Source of the DNA: Mesotoga sp. Brook.08.105.5.1
GTDB taxonomy: Bacteria > Thermotogota > Thermotogae > Petrotogales > Kosmotogaceae
Direction of reading: 5' to 3'
Length of the DNA stretch: 53,408 bases
NCBI RefSeq assembly: GCF_002752635.1
Contig: NZ_AYTW01000045.1
Span: 1 to 53,408 of the forward strand
A model generated the notes under the pieces. It did not search any database. It was not told where the DNA came from and saw only the letters and a list, made by a program, of their open reading frames with translations. Within the stretch, counting starts at the first letter, position 1. Each line of letters starts with the position of its first letter. Made by a program: the position numbers and the translations under genes. Of the stretch, positions 3,101 to 44,555 are shown one piece after another.

Positions 3101-3943
3101 TCATCCTTTCAATCCAGTTCCGCTTATCCCCCGAACGAAATACTTCTGGAGGAAGAGGAAGAGAATGACCGGCGGAAGGCTTCCGGCGATGGCCGAGCTG
3201 AATAAGTTCGCCCAGCTGGTGTTTTCTGTTGATCTGTGTGCCGCTATGGCTACCTGCACAACTTCGAATCTGCTTGAATGGGTTGCTACAAGAGGCCAGA
3301 ACAATGAGTTCCACTGGAACATGAATACCATAACAATCACGGTCACTATTGCCGGTACGCTCAATGGAATAGCTATCTTCCAGTAGATCCTGAACCAGGA
3401 AGCACCGTCAATCCTTGCCGCTTCCATTATCTCTGAAGGCACTTCGGAGAAGAACTGCCTGAACAGGAAGATAGCGAGGCCGTTGGCGACACCGGGAAGG
3501 ATCAGGGCCCAGTATGTGTTGTCTATCCGCAGCTGCTTAATGAGGATATAGAGGGGTATGACAATCGATTCGAAGGGAACCATGAAGGTTATCAGGACTA
3601 TTGTGAAAAGGACCGCCTTGCCCCTGAACTCGAATTTAGCGAGCGCGAATCCTGCCATTGAGGCCACAAGAATTGTTAGGAGAATCGTTGAGACTGAGAC
3701 GAGGAGACTGTTCATAAGGGCTCTCCCAAAGTTCAGGTTTACGAATATGTGAACGAAGTTCTCTAACGTAGGATTAGTAGGAACGAAAGTTCTCCAGGTG
3801 AGGGGGTTTGCATATTCATAGAGTGGGCTGGCTGGCCTCAACGCAGATGCGATTACCCATATAAGCGGGATCAGGAAGAAGAGGCTTATTATGCCTAGAA
3901 TGGCGAATAGAACTAGAGTTTTCCACGGACTTCTTTTCTTCAT
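3101..3943 (-). CDS. Sugar-type ABC transporter permease (MalG/CUT1-like)
   Basis: A 280-residue inner-membrane permease with six predicted hydrophobic segments. The EAA coupling loop that docks on the ATPase is at residues 168-195 (EVPSEIMEAARIDGAS). It pairs with the permease just upstream on the minus strand (gap nine bases) and the binding protein beyond. No ATPase gene lies in this operon, so the importer must borrow a shared CUT1 ATPase encoded elsewhere, a common arrangement in Thermotogae and Firmicutes. Confidence 0.9.
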   Translation of the reverse strand: MKKRSPWKTLVLFAILGIISLFFLIPLIWVIASALRPASPLYEYANPLTWRTFVPTNPTLENFVHIFVNLNFGRALMNSLLVSVSTILLTILVASMAGFALAKFEFRGKAVLFTIVLITFMVPFESIVIPLYILIKQLRIDNTYWALILPGVANGLAIFLFRQFFSEVPSEIMEAARIDGASWFRIYWKIAIPLSVPAIVTVIVMVFMFQWNSLFWPLVATHSSRFEVVQVAIAAHRSTENTSWANLFSSAIAGSLPPVILFLFLQKYFVRGISGTGLKG

Positions 3944-6145: not shown

Positions 6146-6886
6146 TTAACGTCTTCTGATGAGCTTGAAAGTGAACTTTCCTGATGGCAAATAACTCTTC
6201 GAGTACAAAACCTTTCTATCTTGAACGTCGTAATGAATCTGCTCAAGCAAGAGCACCGAAGTGCCTACGTCGATCCTCAGCTTTCTTGACAATCCTTCGT
6301 CAGACTTGAAAGGAATGAGATCACACTCTGCATATCTTATGTCGATATTATAGTGTTTTCCAAGACCCTCAAAGACGGAACCCTGAATTCTCTCCGGGTC
6401 TATTTGAGAAACGAATGATCTCGGGATCACGTCAACACAAACAGCAACCGGGATCTCGGAAGAGTACTTCACAGTCTCAAGAAGATATACTATGCTCCCT
6501 TCCTCCAGTTCAAGGAGCTCGCCGGCCCTTCCATCGCACACACACTCTTCGAACTGTATGACCTCGCTTCTTGCAGAATGGCCTTGAGATTCAATGAAAC
6601 TCGCTATGCTTGAAAGCCTTTCTATACCACCCTTGATGATCGGGTATCTGTCTGTAACAAAAGTGCCGACCCCGTGCCTTTTGAGGAGAAGCCCCTCCTT
6701 CTGAAGAAGACCAATCGCCTCCCTTAGAGAGTTTCTACTCACACCGAGCTTTCTTGCCAGGTCATGTTCAGAAGGAAGCTTCTCGCCGGCCTTCAGCTCT
6801 CCGCTCAGTATGAGGTTTCTCATTTCGCTATGGATCTTTCCCGAAAGAGAAGTATGAATATGATAGTTAAGATCGATATCCTTCAT
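6146..6886 (-). CDS. GntR/HutC-family transcriptional regulator
   Basis: A 246-residue repressor-type regulator. The N-terminal winged helix-turn-helix spans about residues 15-80 (GEKLPSEHDLARKLGVSRNS then LLLKRHGVGTFV). The C-terminal UTRA-type effector domain (about 95-246) is typical of the HutC subfamily, which often senses sugars or amino-sugar phosphates. It is the first gene of the operon that includes the importer, phosphorylase and SDR. The perfect palindrome TGTAGGATGTCCTACA just upstream is its likely operator, which implies autoregulation. Confidence 0.9.
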   Translation of the reverse strand: MKDIDLNYHIHTSLSGKIHSEMRNLILSGELKAGEKLPSEHDLARKLGVSRNSLREAIGLLQKEGLLLKRHGVGTFVTDRYPIIKGGIERLSSIASFIESQGHSARSEVIQFEECVCDGRAGELLELEEGSIVYLLETVKYSSEIPVAVCVDVIPRSFVSQIDPERIQGSVFEGLGKHYNIDIRYAECDLIPFKSDEGLSRKLRIDVGTSVLLLEQIHYDVQDRKVLYSKSYLPSGKFTFKLIRRR

Positions 6887-6906
6887 CTACACCGCCTCTC
6901 TTATGA

Positions 6907-6955
6907 TGTAGGATGTCCTACAAGTAGAATATACACTATTCATCGTCAAAAACAA
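6907..6955 (-). promoter_or_regulatory. Promoter and likely GntR operator
   Basis: A perfect 16-bp palindrome, TGTAGGA-TG-TCCTACA, lies at 6907-6922, 20 bases upstream of the regulator's start. Upstream on the minus strand are TATATT (6933-6928) and, 16 bases further, TTGTTT (6955-6950), a plausible sigma-70 promoter. A TTGACG at 6949-6944 is an alternative -35. The palindrome would sit at about +1, where a bound repressor blocks initiation. The palindrome is seen directly; its recognition by the GntR protein is inferred from position. Confidence 0.6.
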
Positions 6956-7062
6956 AAACTGCAGAAACTTTCTGGTTCAGGTTCACTGTTAACGAGCTGC
7001 CGTCCGAAGAGCCGATATTCGCTGAATGCTGGGAAGAGCCATTGCCCAGAAAAGCATTTGGG

Positions 7063-7290
7063 GACGCAAGGCTGGGCAAGAACGGCCCAGGTCGCAATGC
7101 CCGGAAAAGCGTCCGGGGACGCAAGGCTGGCGAAGACCACGCCAGGACGCAAGGCTGCCTTTGGCAGGAAGTGAGGCCCGAAAGAACATCCGGGGAAGTG
7201 ATGCGGCGAAGAGCATCGCTGGAAGTGAGGCTCGCTAGCGCGAGGAAGTGATGCCCGGAGAAACGTCCGGGGAAGTGATACCGCTTCGCA
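7063..7290 (+). repeat. Hairpin-array repeat, locus B (nine units)
   Basis: A regular array. A 9-base word (GACGCAAGG in the first half, changing to GAAGTGATG/GAAGTGAGG in the second) starts at 7063, 7091, 7118, 7146, 7168, 7195, 7222, 7245 and 7272. The period is therefore 22-28 bases, mostly 27-28. Between words lies a 13-19 base inverted repeat that differs from unit to unit: for example CTGGGC/GCCCAG at 7072-7090, CCCGGA/TCCGGG at 7100-7117, CTGGCG/CGCCAG at 7127-7145, CTGCC/GGCAG at 7155-7167, CTCGC/GCGAG at 7231-7244. No credible gene overlaps it. This is the longest of four copies in the window. It is not CRISPR-like, because the constant part is only 9 bases and the variable parts are palindromes. 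Confidence 0.85.
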
Positions 7291-7845
7291 GGAGGCCTCT
7301 CAGGTCAACCATCAACGGTTCACCGTTCTCCGAGCAGAGCTTCAAGACCTATCAAGTTCTTTGGATGATGATCTTAGGTCCTCCCTTGAGGGAGGATTTA
7401 AGATCAGGATCATCAAGAGCCAAATACAGTTATACTGCCAAAGGAGAAGGAGCATAATGTGATTTCTTTTTGGCTCCCTAACTAATGGGTAATGATGAGC
7501 TCTCGAGAGGTAATTAAAGAGCTCTGCTAGGCTTTTGGAGATCCAAGATACTTGCTTGACACCTATGCATTCCACATTTTTCTATTTTTTGGAGAGTATG
7601 GTTTGCCCAAGAACGAAGAACAGGTACTCGCTCTGGAACTAAGAATAGATCCTTGCTCTGGAGTCTCTCTTTGGCTATTTGTACTCTTACCAACAACGAA
7701 CAATCCACCACCAACTATTTTTCAAGGTTCTTTCCCCAACGTCACCTGCTGGCACGTTCTTCAGAAGCCCCTGCCTGTTCCGAACAAAACTGAATTCTCT
7801 TCATCTAATATAATGGAGGTAATACACAAGTTTCTGGAGGTTGCG
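7291..7845. other. Intergenic spacer with repeat fragments
   Basis: No gene is supported here. 7309-7335 holds an AACGGTTCACCGTTCTCCGA fragment of the second repeat family seen at 42420-42655 and 44010-44190. 7367-7397 contains an inverted pair, TCTTAGGTCCTCCCT and AGGGAGGATTTAAGA, around a short loop, a strong hairpin. 7604-7700 has the AAGAACGAAGAACAG and GCTCTGGAAC words that recur near 42851-42890. The open frame through 7552-7845 is an upstream extension of the binding-protein gene, not its start. Confidence 0.6.
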
Positions 7846-9474
7846 GTGAGAAGATTTAGTCTGGCTATTCTCATACTCGTGTTCGTTTCAAGTTCTTTCA
7901 CAGCGGTTCTGAAAGTAAGAGAGACAGGTGATGAGTTCACTTACGCTGAGGTTGCCGGGGGTACGATCTACCTCCCAGTGGATACTACTTTCAGCTTCTT
8001 GCCGGGGTTTGAGCTTTCAGAAGGGGATTTTTGGGTAACGTTTGCGATTCAGGATCCGCTATTCAGATTGGCAAGCGGTGACGAGTTGAGCCCCTCTCTC
8101 GTAGAGAAGTTCGAATGGAGAGGCTCGAACACGCAACTGTTTATCGAGTTGAGGAGAGACATTTTCTGGTATGACGGCACTCCTATAACCACTGCAGACA
8201 TAGAGTATTCGGTTAGAGCGTGGCGCAATACGGATAGTTCTCCGTTATTTCAAACACTTAACGATCCTAGATATGAAGGGCTGACGATAATAGACAGCAA
8301 ATCGGTGGTTTTCAGTTTCACTTCGGCATATCCGGAATTCATAAACTCCCTGAGGACGGGGATTCTTGCAAAACATGTTTATCAAGACAAGCTAGGAATT
8401 GCCCCCGAAAACCTCAAGACAAGTCATGAGATGGACAAACCTCCTCTAGAAGCATCTTCGGGTCCGTTTCTTCTTGATCAGAAGAGTGTGAAGGGCAACA
8501 TTGTTCTCAAGAGGAATCCGAACTGGCACGGAGAATCTGGCGACGACCTGTTCCCTCTCGTTTTCGATAATTGGCCTGAAAAGAGTCTCCTTGATGAGAT
8601 CAGGCTTGTCGAGGTGGCGGAACCTTCAGACAGGATCGATATGTTCGAAAGGGGTGAGCTCCATCTGCTTTTCAACGGACCTGAGGAGAACGAAGCACTT
8701 ATAAGGTTATCTTCATCAGAAACCTTCACTTCGGGAAGCTTTCCGGACGGTACTTATCATGTTGTTTTGATAAACCACAGGAACGAATTGCTTGCGGAGA
8801 AGGCGGTAAGACAGGCCATGAAGATGTCTCTAAACTATGAATCGCTTCTCGAAGCTATTCCGAATTCCATGAAGACGTTCATTCCTATCGATCCAAGAAC
8901 AGCACTCTTCAAGACACTGGAGGCTCAGATAGTGGATCTCCCATACGATCCGAAAAGGGCGAAGAGTCTTCTTGCAAATTCTGGCTATCCTAATGGCATT
9001 ACTTTGAAGATTAAGATCTATCATGGAGTTGAGACGAAATTGCTTGAGGAACTAAGAAGAAGCTGGGATAGAATAGGGGTGAAGCTTGAAGTCGAAAAGC
9101 TTGATTGGGGCACCCTTCTTCGCGACATCAACGGTGCGAATTACGAGCTGGCCTACCTTCGAGTTCAGGCTTTCGAGTACCCTGAAATTGCTCCCTGGAC
9201 CAATGAATACGAACATGATTTGAGTACGGGATGGGAAGTCGGTTATCTGAACCAGCAGATTTTTAGGATTTTGAGAAGAGCCGCTATAGAACCTGATTGG
9301 GCAAGTCGGACTCCTTATTATCTGGGTGCATACAGGATCTGGACAAATGATGTTCCGGTGTTGATTCTGGCCCACAGTCTTTCTTATGTGTTCTGGAACA
9401 GTGAGCTTGAAGGTCCCGTTCCAGGGAGAGGAGAGCTGTACGAGAATCTCGCCGAGTGGTTTTTGAAAAGGTGA
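7846..9474 (+). CDS. Family-5 solute-binding protein (peptide/oligosaccharide type)
   Basis: The protein is about 542 residues from a GTG at 7846, chosen because CTGGAGG lies five bases before it and it begins directly with a signal peptide (RRFSLAILILVFVSSSFTA). The frame is open further upstream into repeat-derived sequence, which is not coding. An ATG at 7813 is a weaker option. The mature part is an SBP_bac_5 domain of the DppA/OppA type: early LSPSLVEKFEW, FWYDGTPITTADIEYSVRAW and late DPKRAKSLLANSGYPNG are family signatures. In Thermotogae such proteins bind oligosaccharides as often as peptides. No permease or ATPase genes lie nearby, so it is an orphan component. Confidence 0.85.
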   Translation: MRRFSLAILILVFVSSSFTAVLKVRETGDEFTYAEVAGGTIYLPVDTTFSFLPGFELSEGDFWVTFAIQDPLFRLASGDELSPSLVEKFEWRGSNTQLFIELRRDIFWYDGTPITTADIEYSVRAWRNTDSSPLFQTLNDPRYEGLTIIDSKSVVFSFTSAYPEFINSLRTGILAKHVYQDKLGIAPENLKTSHEMDKPPLEASSGPFLLDQKSVKGNIVLKRNPNWHGESGDDLFPLVFDNWPEKSLLDEIRLVEVAEPSDRIDMFERGELHLLFNGPEENEALIRLSSSETFTSGSFPDGTYHVVLINHRNELLAEKAVRQAMKMSLNYESLLEAIPNSMKTFIPIDPRTALFKTLEAQIVDLPYDPKRAKSLLANSGYPNGITLKIKIYHGVETKLLEELRRSWDRIGVKLEVEKLDWGTLLRDINGANYELAYLRVQAFEYPEIAPWTNEYEHDLSTGWEVGYLNQQIFRILRRAAIEPDWASRTPYYLGAYRIWTNDVPVLILAHSLSYVFWNSELEGPVPGRGELYENLAEWFLKR

Positions 9475-41516: not shown

Positions 41517-42010
41517 GCGACCTCAAGAGCATTTTGGAGATAGCACTCAGTTTCGAAAAATCCGGTCAGGAGTTCTACAGAAACAATATGCAGAAGGTCA
41601 ATCAATCCGTTGCCAAAAAGACCTTCGGATATCTTATGGATATGGAAGCCTCTCATGTGAAGTTCATCGAGGGTATGATTGAAGCTCTTGAAGACAACAA
41701 GAAGGTTGATTCTGCCCTTCAGGAAGAAGCGGAGGAGATATTCGTAGAGAGACTGAAATCGCAGGCGCTTTCAAACAACTCTTACAGCAGCGATCTTGCC
41801 GATCTTTCGATTCTAAGAATGGCCTACCTCATTGAAAGGGATTTTGTTGACTACTATGAAAATGCCTCCAAAAAGGTGGAAGACATGAGTGCAAAGAAAC
41901 TCATGGTAAGGCTAATGAACTGGGAAAAAGGACATGTTTCTCTTGTCAGAAACCTTATGGAGAGGATATACGAGAAAAACGCAATTGATCTTGGCTTCTA
42001 TCCCTTTTAA
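41513..42010 (+). CDS. Rubrerythrin/ferritin-like diiron protein
   Basis: A 165-residue four-helix bundle protein without a rubredoxin domain. Candidate diiron ligands: Glu20 (and Glu15), the ExxH pair Glu45/His48, Glu116 (and Glu108), and the ExxH pair Glu138/His141. The order and spacing match ferritin-like rubrerythrin domains, which reduce peroxide or store metal. Its ATG overlaps the stop of the Mbx fusion gene (ATGA), so it is the final member of that operon. It may protect the iron-sulfur clusters of the complex; that role is inferred from position. Confidence 0.78.
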   Translation: MSDLKSILEIALSFEKSGQEFYRNNMQKVNQSVAKKTFGYLMDMEASHVKFIEGMIEALEDNKKVDSALQEEAEEIFVERLKSQALSNNSYSSDLADLSILRMAYLIERDFVDYYENASKKVEDMSAKKLMVRLMNWEKGHVSLVRNLMERIYEKNAIDLGFYPF

Positions 42011-42183
42011 TAAGGGAACGCTTTCAAGAAGAGAAATTTCTAGCCATTCGGCTGAAGTCAGTGTGCTGACGGAGGCTAATCAGGTTTCGTTGTACATAGG
42101 ACTGCTGGGCGCTTGCTAAGAGACGCTCAAAAAACCTTTGGCAGTCAACGGTCTATAGTTCTTCGGGAAGAACATCATCGCGA

Positions 42184-42290
42184 GACGCAAGCCTGCCTTC
42201 GGCAGGAGGCGACACCGACTGCGTCGGGAAGTGATGCCCGGAGGAACATTCGGGGAAGTGATGCTGGCACTTTCGCGCCAGGAAGAAAAA
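42184..42290 (+). repeat. Hairpin-array repeat, locus C
   Basis: Same orientation as locus B. Words at 42184 (GACGCAAGC), 42206 (GAGGCGACA), 42228 and 42255 (both GAAGTGATG), each followed by a hairpin: CTGCC/GGCAG with TTC loop (42193-42205), CCGAC/GTCGG (42215-42227), CCCGGA/TTCGGG (42237-42254) and CTGGC/GCCAG (42264-42281). Period 22-27 bases. Confidence 0.8.
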
Positions 42291-42419
42291 GGAGAGGAGT
42301 CGATCTGGATATTTTCGATAACTCCACATGTATCGTTCTGAAGCAAGTTCAGCTTCTCGCTCTTGGTTTTTTTGAGCTTGACCAAAAACGAAGAACAGAT
42401 CCTTGCTTAGAAACGAACA

Positions 42420-42655
42420 ACGGGTTTTTCCAGTCAAGCTCCGCTTGGCCACTCTCGCCTTCGGCGAGGCCAGTTCCACTTCGCGGGCTAGAGCCGCTGA
42501 ACGCCAGAAGTTCCGCTGTACGGTTAAGACCGAGGACCCGCTGAACGCTGCTCAAAACAACGTTGTCCGTCAACGGTCCACCGTCCACCGAGAAGAGCGG
42601 ACCTTCGACAAGATCAAAACCGAGATCCCGAAACAAGTTCGGGATGACGAGGTTA
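42420..42655 (+). repeat. Second dispersed repeat, copy 1
   Basis: About 230 bases closely similar to 44010-44190. It begins with stacked small palindromes with TTCG turns (GCTCCGCTTGGCC, GCCTTCGGC, CACTTCGCGG), continues with GTCCGTCAACGGTCCACCG, GAGAAGAGC and CTTCGACAAGATCAAAACCG, and ends in the hairpin CCCGAAACAAGTTCGGG plus ATGAC. Fragments also occur near 7309, 42138, 43945 and 44290. Confidence 0.8.
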
Positions 42656-43116
42656 GGGAGTTACGAAAATCTCTTCGCAAAAACGATGGAAGAAGTCTTC
42701 GAAAAGCCTCTATCGGAATGACGTCCTCAGTAGCGCTGACAATCGTGAATTGGGCGATCGTCTCTTTGCAAAACCCCAGACTCCAGACCCGCTCCTTGGT
42801 TTGTTCTTGCAACTCACAACTTGGCACTTGCATCTGCTGTTGGTCCTAACCAAGAACGAAGAACAGATACTCGCTCTGGAACGAAGAACAGTTTTCTTCG
42901 GCGAACGGAGAACCAGTTTTGTTGCTCTTCCTACCACGAACCCGCAACCCCCAACCCCGTTCTTTCCAGCTTTCAGCGTATTTTAGCAAGCGGAAAGCGG
43001 TTCTTCTCGATGAGCGGAGGACCGCCAAACGGATAACTCCTTTCTTGAACATGTAATCATTCTAAATAGTCATAAGAAGACCGATAATATTTGTCTAGAA
43101 TTACATGGAGGTATTT

Positions 43117-44009: not shown

Positions 44010-44190
44010 TGCCGCAGGCCAGTCAGGCTTCGCCTGGCCAGTCGCACTTCGCGCGGCCAGTTCCGCTTCGCGGGAGAAGAGCCGCTGTACGCTGATGAAA
44101 ACCACGTTATCCGTCAACGGTTCACCGTTCTCCGAGAAGAGCACCTTCGACAAGATCAAAACCGAGAACCCGAAACAAGTTCGGGATGAC
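44010..44190 (+). repeat. Second dispersed repeat, copy 2
   Basis: Near copy of 42420-42655. Palindromic GGCTTCGCCTGGCC, ACTTCGCGCGGCC and GCTTCGCGG, then TCCGTCAACGGTTCACCG, GAGAAGAGC, CTTCGACAAGATCAAAACCG and the final hairpin CCCGAAACAAGTTCGGG. The last 105 bases match copy 1 with only scattered differences. Confidence 0.8.
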
Positions 44191-44453
44191 AGTGAATGAT
44201 TATTCCGAAAAGGATAGATTCCGTCATTCCGACAAAGCTCCTGGTCTGAATCTTGATGCTATTACTTCACGTCTCTTCACGACAAACGGAGAACCACTCA
44301 ACGGTCAACCAGTTTCTCTAGATCTTACGAGCCCGTAGCACCAACCCCGGTCTTTAATAAGCCCAGATCCTGAACAGGAGAACTTCAGGATGACAGAATA
44401 AGTTGGTTTTGATCGGATTGCTTCAGTTTGCTTGCTCTTTTTTTGGTTTTTGC

Positions 44454-44555
44454 CTCCTGGTGGGTAAGCGCCAAAATCACTTCCTCAAATGCCCTTCCGG
44501 GAATCACTTCCTCGCGCCAGCGAGCCCAACTTCCTGGCGAAGCCAGCATCACTTC
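44454..44555 (-). repeat. Hairpin-array repeat, locus D
   Basis: Opposite orientation to B and C, same as A. Words AATCACTTC at 44475 and 44502, CCCAACTTC at 44525 and CATCACTTC at 44547. The hairpins at 44511-44524 (CTCGC/GCGAG) and 44534-44546 (CTGGC/GCCAG) are identical to those of locus A and in the same order; the first two hairpins are partly decayed. Confidence 0.75.

Follow-up and report, generated by a model that had tools for sequence, protein, structure and literature searches.

Within the 53,408-nt window, by which we mean the whole stretch of DNA analysed here, the divergent intergenic region between a gene for a GntR-family regulator (6146-6886, minus strand) and a gene for an ABC transporter substrate-binding protein (7552-9474, plus strand) carries a plus-strand array in which nine 9-nt words alternate with hairpins before a closing cap (7063-7295). 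The words start at 7063, 7091, 7118, 7146, 7168, 7195, 7222, 7245 and 7272; their spacings of 28, 27, 28, 22, 27, 27, 23 and 27 bear out the nine units with a period of mostly 27-28 that the initial annotation had described (27-28 in six of eight cases). The linkers are hairpins of 13, 14, 18 or 19 nt, located on the plus strand at 7072-7090, 7100-7117, 7127-7145, 7155-7167, 7177-7194, 7204-7221, 7231-7244 and 7254-7271. A degenerate first hairpin with a CCCA...TGGG stem precedes the first intact word (7045-7062, plus strand), and the array runs on to 7295 with the cap hairpin CCGCTTCGCAG followed by the terminal tag GAGG (7281-7295, plus strand). This cap contains one mismatched pair and differs by one base from the common cap CTGCTTCGCAG.

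The three further intergenic loci that had been reported for this architecture are likewise arrays of the same kind. The first occupies the contig start on the minus strand (1-103), with its cap hairpin and GAGG end at position 1; the next (42184-42285, plus strand) consists of four hairpins, the last of which is a cap followed by GAAG; and the last (44453-44555, minus strand) has partly degenerate words (GAAGTGATT, GAAGTTGGG) as well as a cap hairpin and GAGG. An array of a second family, in which the 6-nt word GCCAGT alternates with short hairpins, lies at 44018-44072 on the plus strand. In the same genome (G000), arrays also lie close to several contig ends, at distances of no more than a few hundred bases, namely at 1-103 of the window and at the starts of contigs C1, C7, C12 and C28, which means that assemblies may break at arrays.

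The same architecture is found at dozens of sites between genes in 7 of 10 Mesotoga genomes, including the closed genome of M. prima (G001), and hardly anywhere else. A genome-wide search, as had been proposed for this repeat, recovers 116 copies (64 + 52) of the 11-mer GGAAGTGATGC in the own 2.99-Mb genome versus 2 of the reversed pattern, and the arrays are thus found both elsewhere in the genome and in relatives. Among the 101 genomes searched, the 11-mer has at least 12 copies in each of these seven Mesotoga genomes, 0-2 copies in the three without the array family (G003, G006, G007) and no more than 5 in any of the 91 genomes from other genera. A covariance model of word, hairpin and word, whose copy numbers are lower bounds as at most 113 candidates per genome were scored, matches in 7 of 10 Mesotoga genomes and, with two matches, in one other genome of the family (G010); of the 61 genomes searched, 10 from Mesotoga and 51 from outside it, the remaining 53 gave no match. 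In G010, which belongs to another genus, a single array-like stretch sits on a 3.2-kb contig of a draft assembly (L229, G010:C104), and may reflect either horizontal transfer or mis-binning, which look alike here.

In M. prima, 157 word matches form 68 arrays, the distribution of which is uneven along the chromosome (G001:C1): 675 kb (215-890 kb) contain no match to either word pattern, and nine arrays crowd together at 1,251-1,270 kb. Match positions at about 1,793-1,847 kb recur some 76 kb further on at 1,880-1,929 kb (L177 and L114), which points to a duplicated region, and the one pair of array copies compared there is 100% identical over 658 bp including flanks; some M. prima arrays are consequently counted twice, except in counts of distinct sequences. 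The GC skew of this genome, both raw and at four-fold sites, yielded no usable origin or terminus for a comparison of replication strands.

For a closer analysis of words and stems, we drew on sampled stretches of two genomes (the window, L036-L053, L104 and L111 of G000; L154-L193 and L114 of G001), which contain 424 units of word, linker and word; the loci L001-L033, which overlap, and L034-L035, which lack arrays, were left out. Of the 424 linkers, 317 form an outer stem of at least 5 bp, versus 0.64 expected upon shuffling of each linker; together with the 116 versus 2 copies of the 11-mer, this excludes chance. The hairpins fall into classes of 11-13 nt with a 3-nt loop, of 14 nt with a 4-nt loop, and of 18-19 nt with a 6-bp stem and a loop of 6-7 nt, their stems being mostly 5-6 bp long and starting with C-G. 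Instead of ever-changing hairpins, as initially perceived, we find a limited vocabulary with recurring cores, in which 12 outer 4-bp stems cover all 343 hairpins with perfect outer stems. Likewise, the word does not simply drift but takes two main forms, G[AT]CGCAA.. and GAAGTGA.., each tied to particular hairpins. Constant cores can be found inside exchanged outer stems: 16 of 99 cores occur with at least two stems, one of them with up to six, and identical cores carry multi-base compensatory stem changes.

Pairing is maintained while the stems vary, as had been claimed. In 60 aligned units, taken from 129 distinct 36-mers that had been selected for having at least five of six pairs, the covariation score is 0.523, compared to 0.097 +/- 0.018 in shuffles and at most 0.081 with slid partners. 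In these units 97.2% of cells are paired, a percentage inflated by that preselection, and 68 cells differ from the commonest pair on both sides, these counts following sequences and not independent events. Two further covariation measures do not rise above shuffles (both-side-changed pairs, 3 vs 2.9; further pair types, 10 vs 10.8). Imperfect pairs, summed over the hairpin classes, comprise 25 G-T and 25 A-C; without an excess of the former, nothing points to tolerance of G-U in an RNA from either strand, and selection at the RNA level, one of the options suggested initially, is not required.

All units of one array point the same way, with words and hairpins arranged head-to-tail. The commonest caps are nearly confined to the 3' end of the array, CCCGCTTCGCGGG being terminal in 24 cases and internal in one, and CTGCTTCGCAG terminal in 13 and internal in none; CTGCCTTCGGCAG and CTGGCTTCGCCAG can be either terminal or internal. 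Of the 92 terminal hairpins that were recognised, 66 are followed by GAGG or GAAG; at 21 of the 113 distinct ends of arrays no terminal hairpin could be recognised. By our own reading of the sequence, a unit on the minus strand may be described as a 4-nt tag (CTTC, CGTC or CGAC), a hairpin, a 3-nt tail and a 2-nt spacer. The 424 words after a linker provide CTTC 223 times, CGTC 158 times and CGAC 33 times on that strand, and the 92 recognised terminal positions CCTC 39, CTTC 27 and CATC 8 times. Neighbouring hairpins are of the same type in only 2 of 240 cases (22.2 expected overall, 8.4 within arrays), which shows that arrays are not built by simple tandem duplication. The order of modules is also non-random, since in 29 of 38 cases the hairpin after the CTCG 14-mer is the CCCG 18-mer. 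Finally, for 18 of 188 triples of consecutive units A-B-C, the shortened order A-C is found elsewhere, so that arrays differ by whole units.

Short loops mostly follow a rule on the minus strand, reading C-GNA-G or C-GNNA-G with the closing pair: among distinct hairpin-like sequences, GNA is found in 18 of 23 13-mers and 3 of 4 11-mers, and GNNA in 8 of 9 14-mers, while the subset with perfect stems gives 10 of 14, 2 of 2 and 5 of 6, respectively. In the GCCAGT family, all 12 distinct minus-strand triloops on stems of at least 4 bp are GNA, and the C-GNA-G loop rule is thus common to both families; arrays of this second family also occur at L038, L039, L224 and L225 and may adjoin those of the first. 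A wider d(cGNNAg) loop rule exists, and GNA-like triloops are found in RNA too, so that the loop rule is not proof of a DNA-level role. Nearest-neighbour folding shows no strand preference for triloop hairpins with either DNA or RNA parameters; the 14-mers slightly favour the minus strand with both, and 78 of 105 18-19-mers favour the plus strand by a small advantage with DNA parameters. GNA trinucleotide loops form extraordinarily stable DNA minihairpins, according to the passage of PMC6479982 that cites Yoshizawa 1997.

Array content has turned over at two orthologous sites whose flanks are about 73-95% identical. At the GntR site, four species (own, G001, G002, G004) carry arrays of different content within flanking DNA of about 73-75% identity; a remnant is left in G009, and there is no array in G008 or in G003, G006 and G007, the genomes without the family. 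The second site (window 42010-43105, with a gene end at 42010) has a left flank of 91% and a right gene of 89-92% identity. Here M. prima has no array and instead contains CGTC-type and other repeats, the array of G009 differs from that at 42184-42285 of the window, and G002, whose left flank is 95% identical and whose contig ends at this site, has a GCCAGT array.

CGTC REPs, which include the CGTC-3 family of M. prima and Kosmotoga olearia, are described in the relevant text of PMC3733652 as having 9-bp stems that almost always start with AT, as occurring mostly as head-head dimers and as not being associated with a transposase. Such elements are present in the same genomes, where CGTC-tagged palindromes number 58 versus 12 for the reversed tag and TGTC-tagged ones 105 versus 70, with 22 copies of one TGTCATCCCG... 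sequence among them. Examples of CGTC/TGTC-tagged 9-bp palindromes with variable stems can be seen at L034 (about 3886-3916) and L223 (about 940-1070). Judged from the text description in PMC3733652, this AT-starting family is probably CGTC-3. The word and hairpin arrays are a distinct family. They share with the CGTC REPs, as portrayed there, the nature of intergenic short palindromes with variable stems and no associated transposase, as well as an unpaired 4-nt tag on the minus strand (CGTC, CTTC, CGAC and terminal CCTC) and a short unpaired tail. Unlike these REPs, which that text describes with AT-starting stems of 8-9 bp, loops of 4-5 nt and mainly head-head dimers with negligible head-tail ones, the arrays have 5-6-bp stems that do not start with AT, loops of 3, 4, 6 or 7 nt, and a head-to-tail arrangement with a 9-nt junction and caps. 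Their tags fit the superfamily rule of CGTC or TGTC/CCTC given there only in part. The initial statement that the array fits no REP was accordingly too strong with regard to the REP-like minus-strand anatomy, and correct in that CGTC-family stems, loops and dimers are not reproduced.

High copy number, intergenic position, grouping and presumed spread at the DNA level are also features of GTAG REPs, BIMEs and REPINs. BIMEs alternate the orientation of REPs according to the portion of PMC2817692 that treats them, whereas array units all run in one direction. No GTAG stands beside the stem in the words, and GTAG-tagged 9-bp palindromes number 10 versus 11 in the reversed control. Neisseria dRS3 is one palindrome family, in contrast to the arrays, which string about 12 stem types with common cores on a constant word. 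Like dRS3 (CGTC-1 in the description of PMC3733652), the arrays are hairpin repeats that cluster and are interleaved with other families in long intergenic regions. PMC12306157 contains a program-based count of the REPs in M. prima and remarks that the motifs of Thermotogota match no others; its passages on M. prima REPs do not describe the arrays, and we found no prior description of this architecture in the open-access PMC literature.

We propose, with a probability of about one half, that the arrays are Mesotoga-specific composite REP-like DNA repeats whose units are gained, lost and shuffled, probably via single-stranded hairpins. Of the options raised initially, that of a repeat replicating in the manner of REP elements still ranks first. 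The family would live at the DNA level, and we infer a mechanism based on single-stranded DNA: whenever the minus strand becomes single-stranded during replication or repair, each unit could fold up as a minihairpin that carries CTTC, CGTC or CGAC as its 5' tag and has a 3-nt tail. If tags or words were then cut or took part in strand exchange, units and whole arrays could be copied, inserted or lost, and replication template switching between the arms of a stem may help perfect stems to persist. The mover would not be a RAYT kept beside the arrays. Our analysis found no transposition event, excised intermediate or mobilising enzyme, and movement could also be passive, by word-word recombination and segmental duplication; in 182 of 1,011 array pairs the shared sequence extends past an array end into the flank, although some of these pairs are overlapping windows of one site.

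The strongest rival takes this passivity further and supposes a mutational repeat, in which replication template switching makes and keeps the hairpins by quasi-palindrome correction and recombination between words shuffles the arrays, with neither a dedicated enzyme nor structural selection. The multi-base compensatory changes on identical cores, the equal numbers of G-T and A-C among imperfect pairs and the local segmental duplications all speak for it, as does the ability of template switching to create and maintain stems that is argued for in the pertinent part of PMC8794818. Template switching is also reported, in the corresponding part of PMC8604942, to invert spacers, and this is unmatched here, since inverted loops are absent from the 23 distinct hairpin-like 13-mers and from the 40 commonest 18-mer loops listed. 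Dedicated caps with terminal tags and the avoidance of identical neighbours would be unexpected from such a process alone, and we regard it as a possible but unlikely account. We are somewhat more doubtful about the arrays as modular mobile DNA, in which hairpin cassettes of 22-28 bp, bounded by a 4-nt tag, would be added serially beside the cap in fixed polarity, by a logic resembling that of integrons; single-stranded C-GNA-G minihairpins would be read by a putative enzyme, and the GCCAGT family would be an independent case that follows the same rule.

Strong stem covariation and polarity with caps might also be expected of functional RNAs, that is, transcribed multi-hairpin RNAs or 3' stabilisers of mRNAs. 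The absence of a G-U bias on either strand and the lack of any Rfam match at gathering score in the window stand against such a role, as does the difference in array content beside genes of about 91% identity. Gene context points in the same direction. None of 51 arrays in sampled G000 loci and one of 60 in G001 lies within a predicted ORF, and the 83 arrays that could be classified with our crude gene calls (27 more being too near the locus edge and one lying in a predicted ORF) comprise 17 in convergent, 17 in divergent and 49 in co-directional settings, the latter 22 in the same sense and 27 antisense. Among the 98 gaps between genes that served as background, each at least 100 bp long, 21 are convergent, 30 divergent and 47 co-directional. 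There is no clear preference for a gene context, including gene 3' ends, and this spread argues against terminators or 3' stabilisers as a general role. The terminator cluster considered in the initial annotation is also at odds with the finding of no terminator-like site at 6880-7560 (0.6 in shuffles). Altogether, we consider functional RNA highly improbable.

Mobilisation by a RAYT, in which a Y1 transposase would copy the units as it does the REPs and REPINs of other bacteria, appears very unlikely. The REP-like order of tag, hairpin and tail on the minus strand would suit it, and the REP-associated Y1 transposase that the initial annotation suggested searching for does exist in the own genome, where a profile search gave three matches to PF01797 (Y1_Tnp). 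One is a degraded gene, interrupted by in-frame stops, that begins about 360 bp downstream of an array (L036 3712-4074, G000:C16:133711-134073). Two closely similar intact genes of 288-291 aa are located at L034 (2977-3852) and L035 (2725-3591, minus strand), and their fetched flanks (L031, L032) contain no exact array word; another dispersed repeat, around 'aatggagtctgtccctatttt', crowds intergenic regions at L034 and L035. Yet the transposase does not track the arrays across the genus. Its 13 matches are distributed over 5 of 10 genomes, comprising three of the seven with arrays and two of the three without the family; there is no match in G001, the closed M. prima, which sets the arrays apart from RAYT-mobilised GTAG REPs, nor in G002, G005 and G008, the assemblies of G005 and G008 being incomplete. 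At least three words are present in the fetched flanks of only 2 of the 13 Y1 loci. For want of a correlation with the arrays across the genus, we reject a RAYT as their current main mover.

We likewise give little credence to an array of protein-binding sites, with one site per word and hairpin for a nucleoid protein, gyrase or a replication or segregation factor. The near-constant word and core, the spacing of 22-28 and the locally uniform orientation of arrays in M. prima, with 17 switches among 68 arrays versus 33.7 expected, are compatible with it. Their erratic presence does not fit such a function, given that the family is missing from three Mesotoga genomes and that arrays at orthologous sites turn over, and the uniform orientation could stem from local duplication. 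Short repeats at regular spacing also recall CRISPR arrays, which we reject in line with the initial annotation, because the constant part has 9 nt in place of a repeat of 24-48 bp, the linkers, instead of being unique foreign spacers, are palindromes shared by different arrays and genomes, and no plasmid or phage matches to the array were found. This lack of matches also led us to reject a plasmid or phage origin.

The arrays are thus best filed among bacterial palindromic repeats, as a Mesotoga-specific family of polarised, capped and modular hairpin arrays. As a dense natural set of hairpins with changing stems but constant pairing, loop class and polarity, they can help to separate selection for structure from mutational upkeep by template switching, two explanations that are readily mistaken for each other. 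Their limited vocabulary, their caps and their differences by whole units show that palindromic repeats of bacteria can be assembled as ordered strings of modules, which here persist without a RAYT and may be moved by some other enzyme, if by any.
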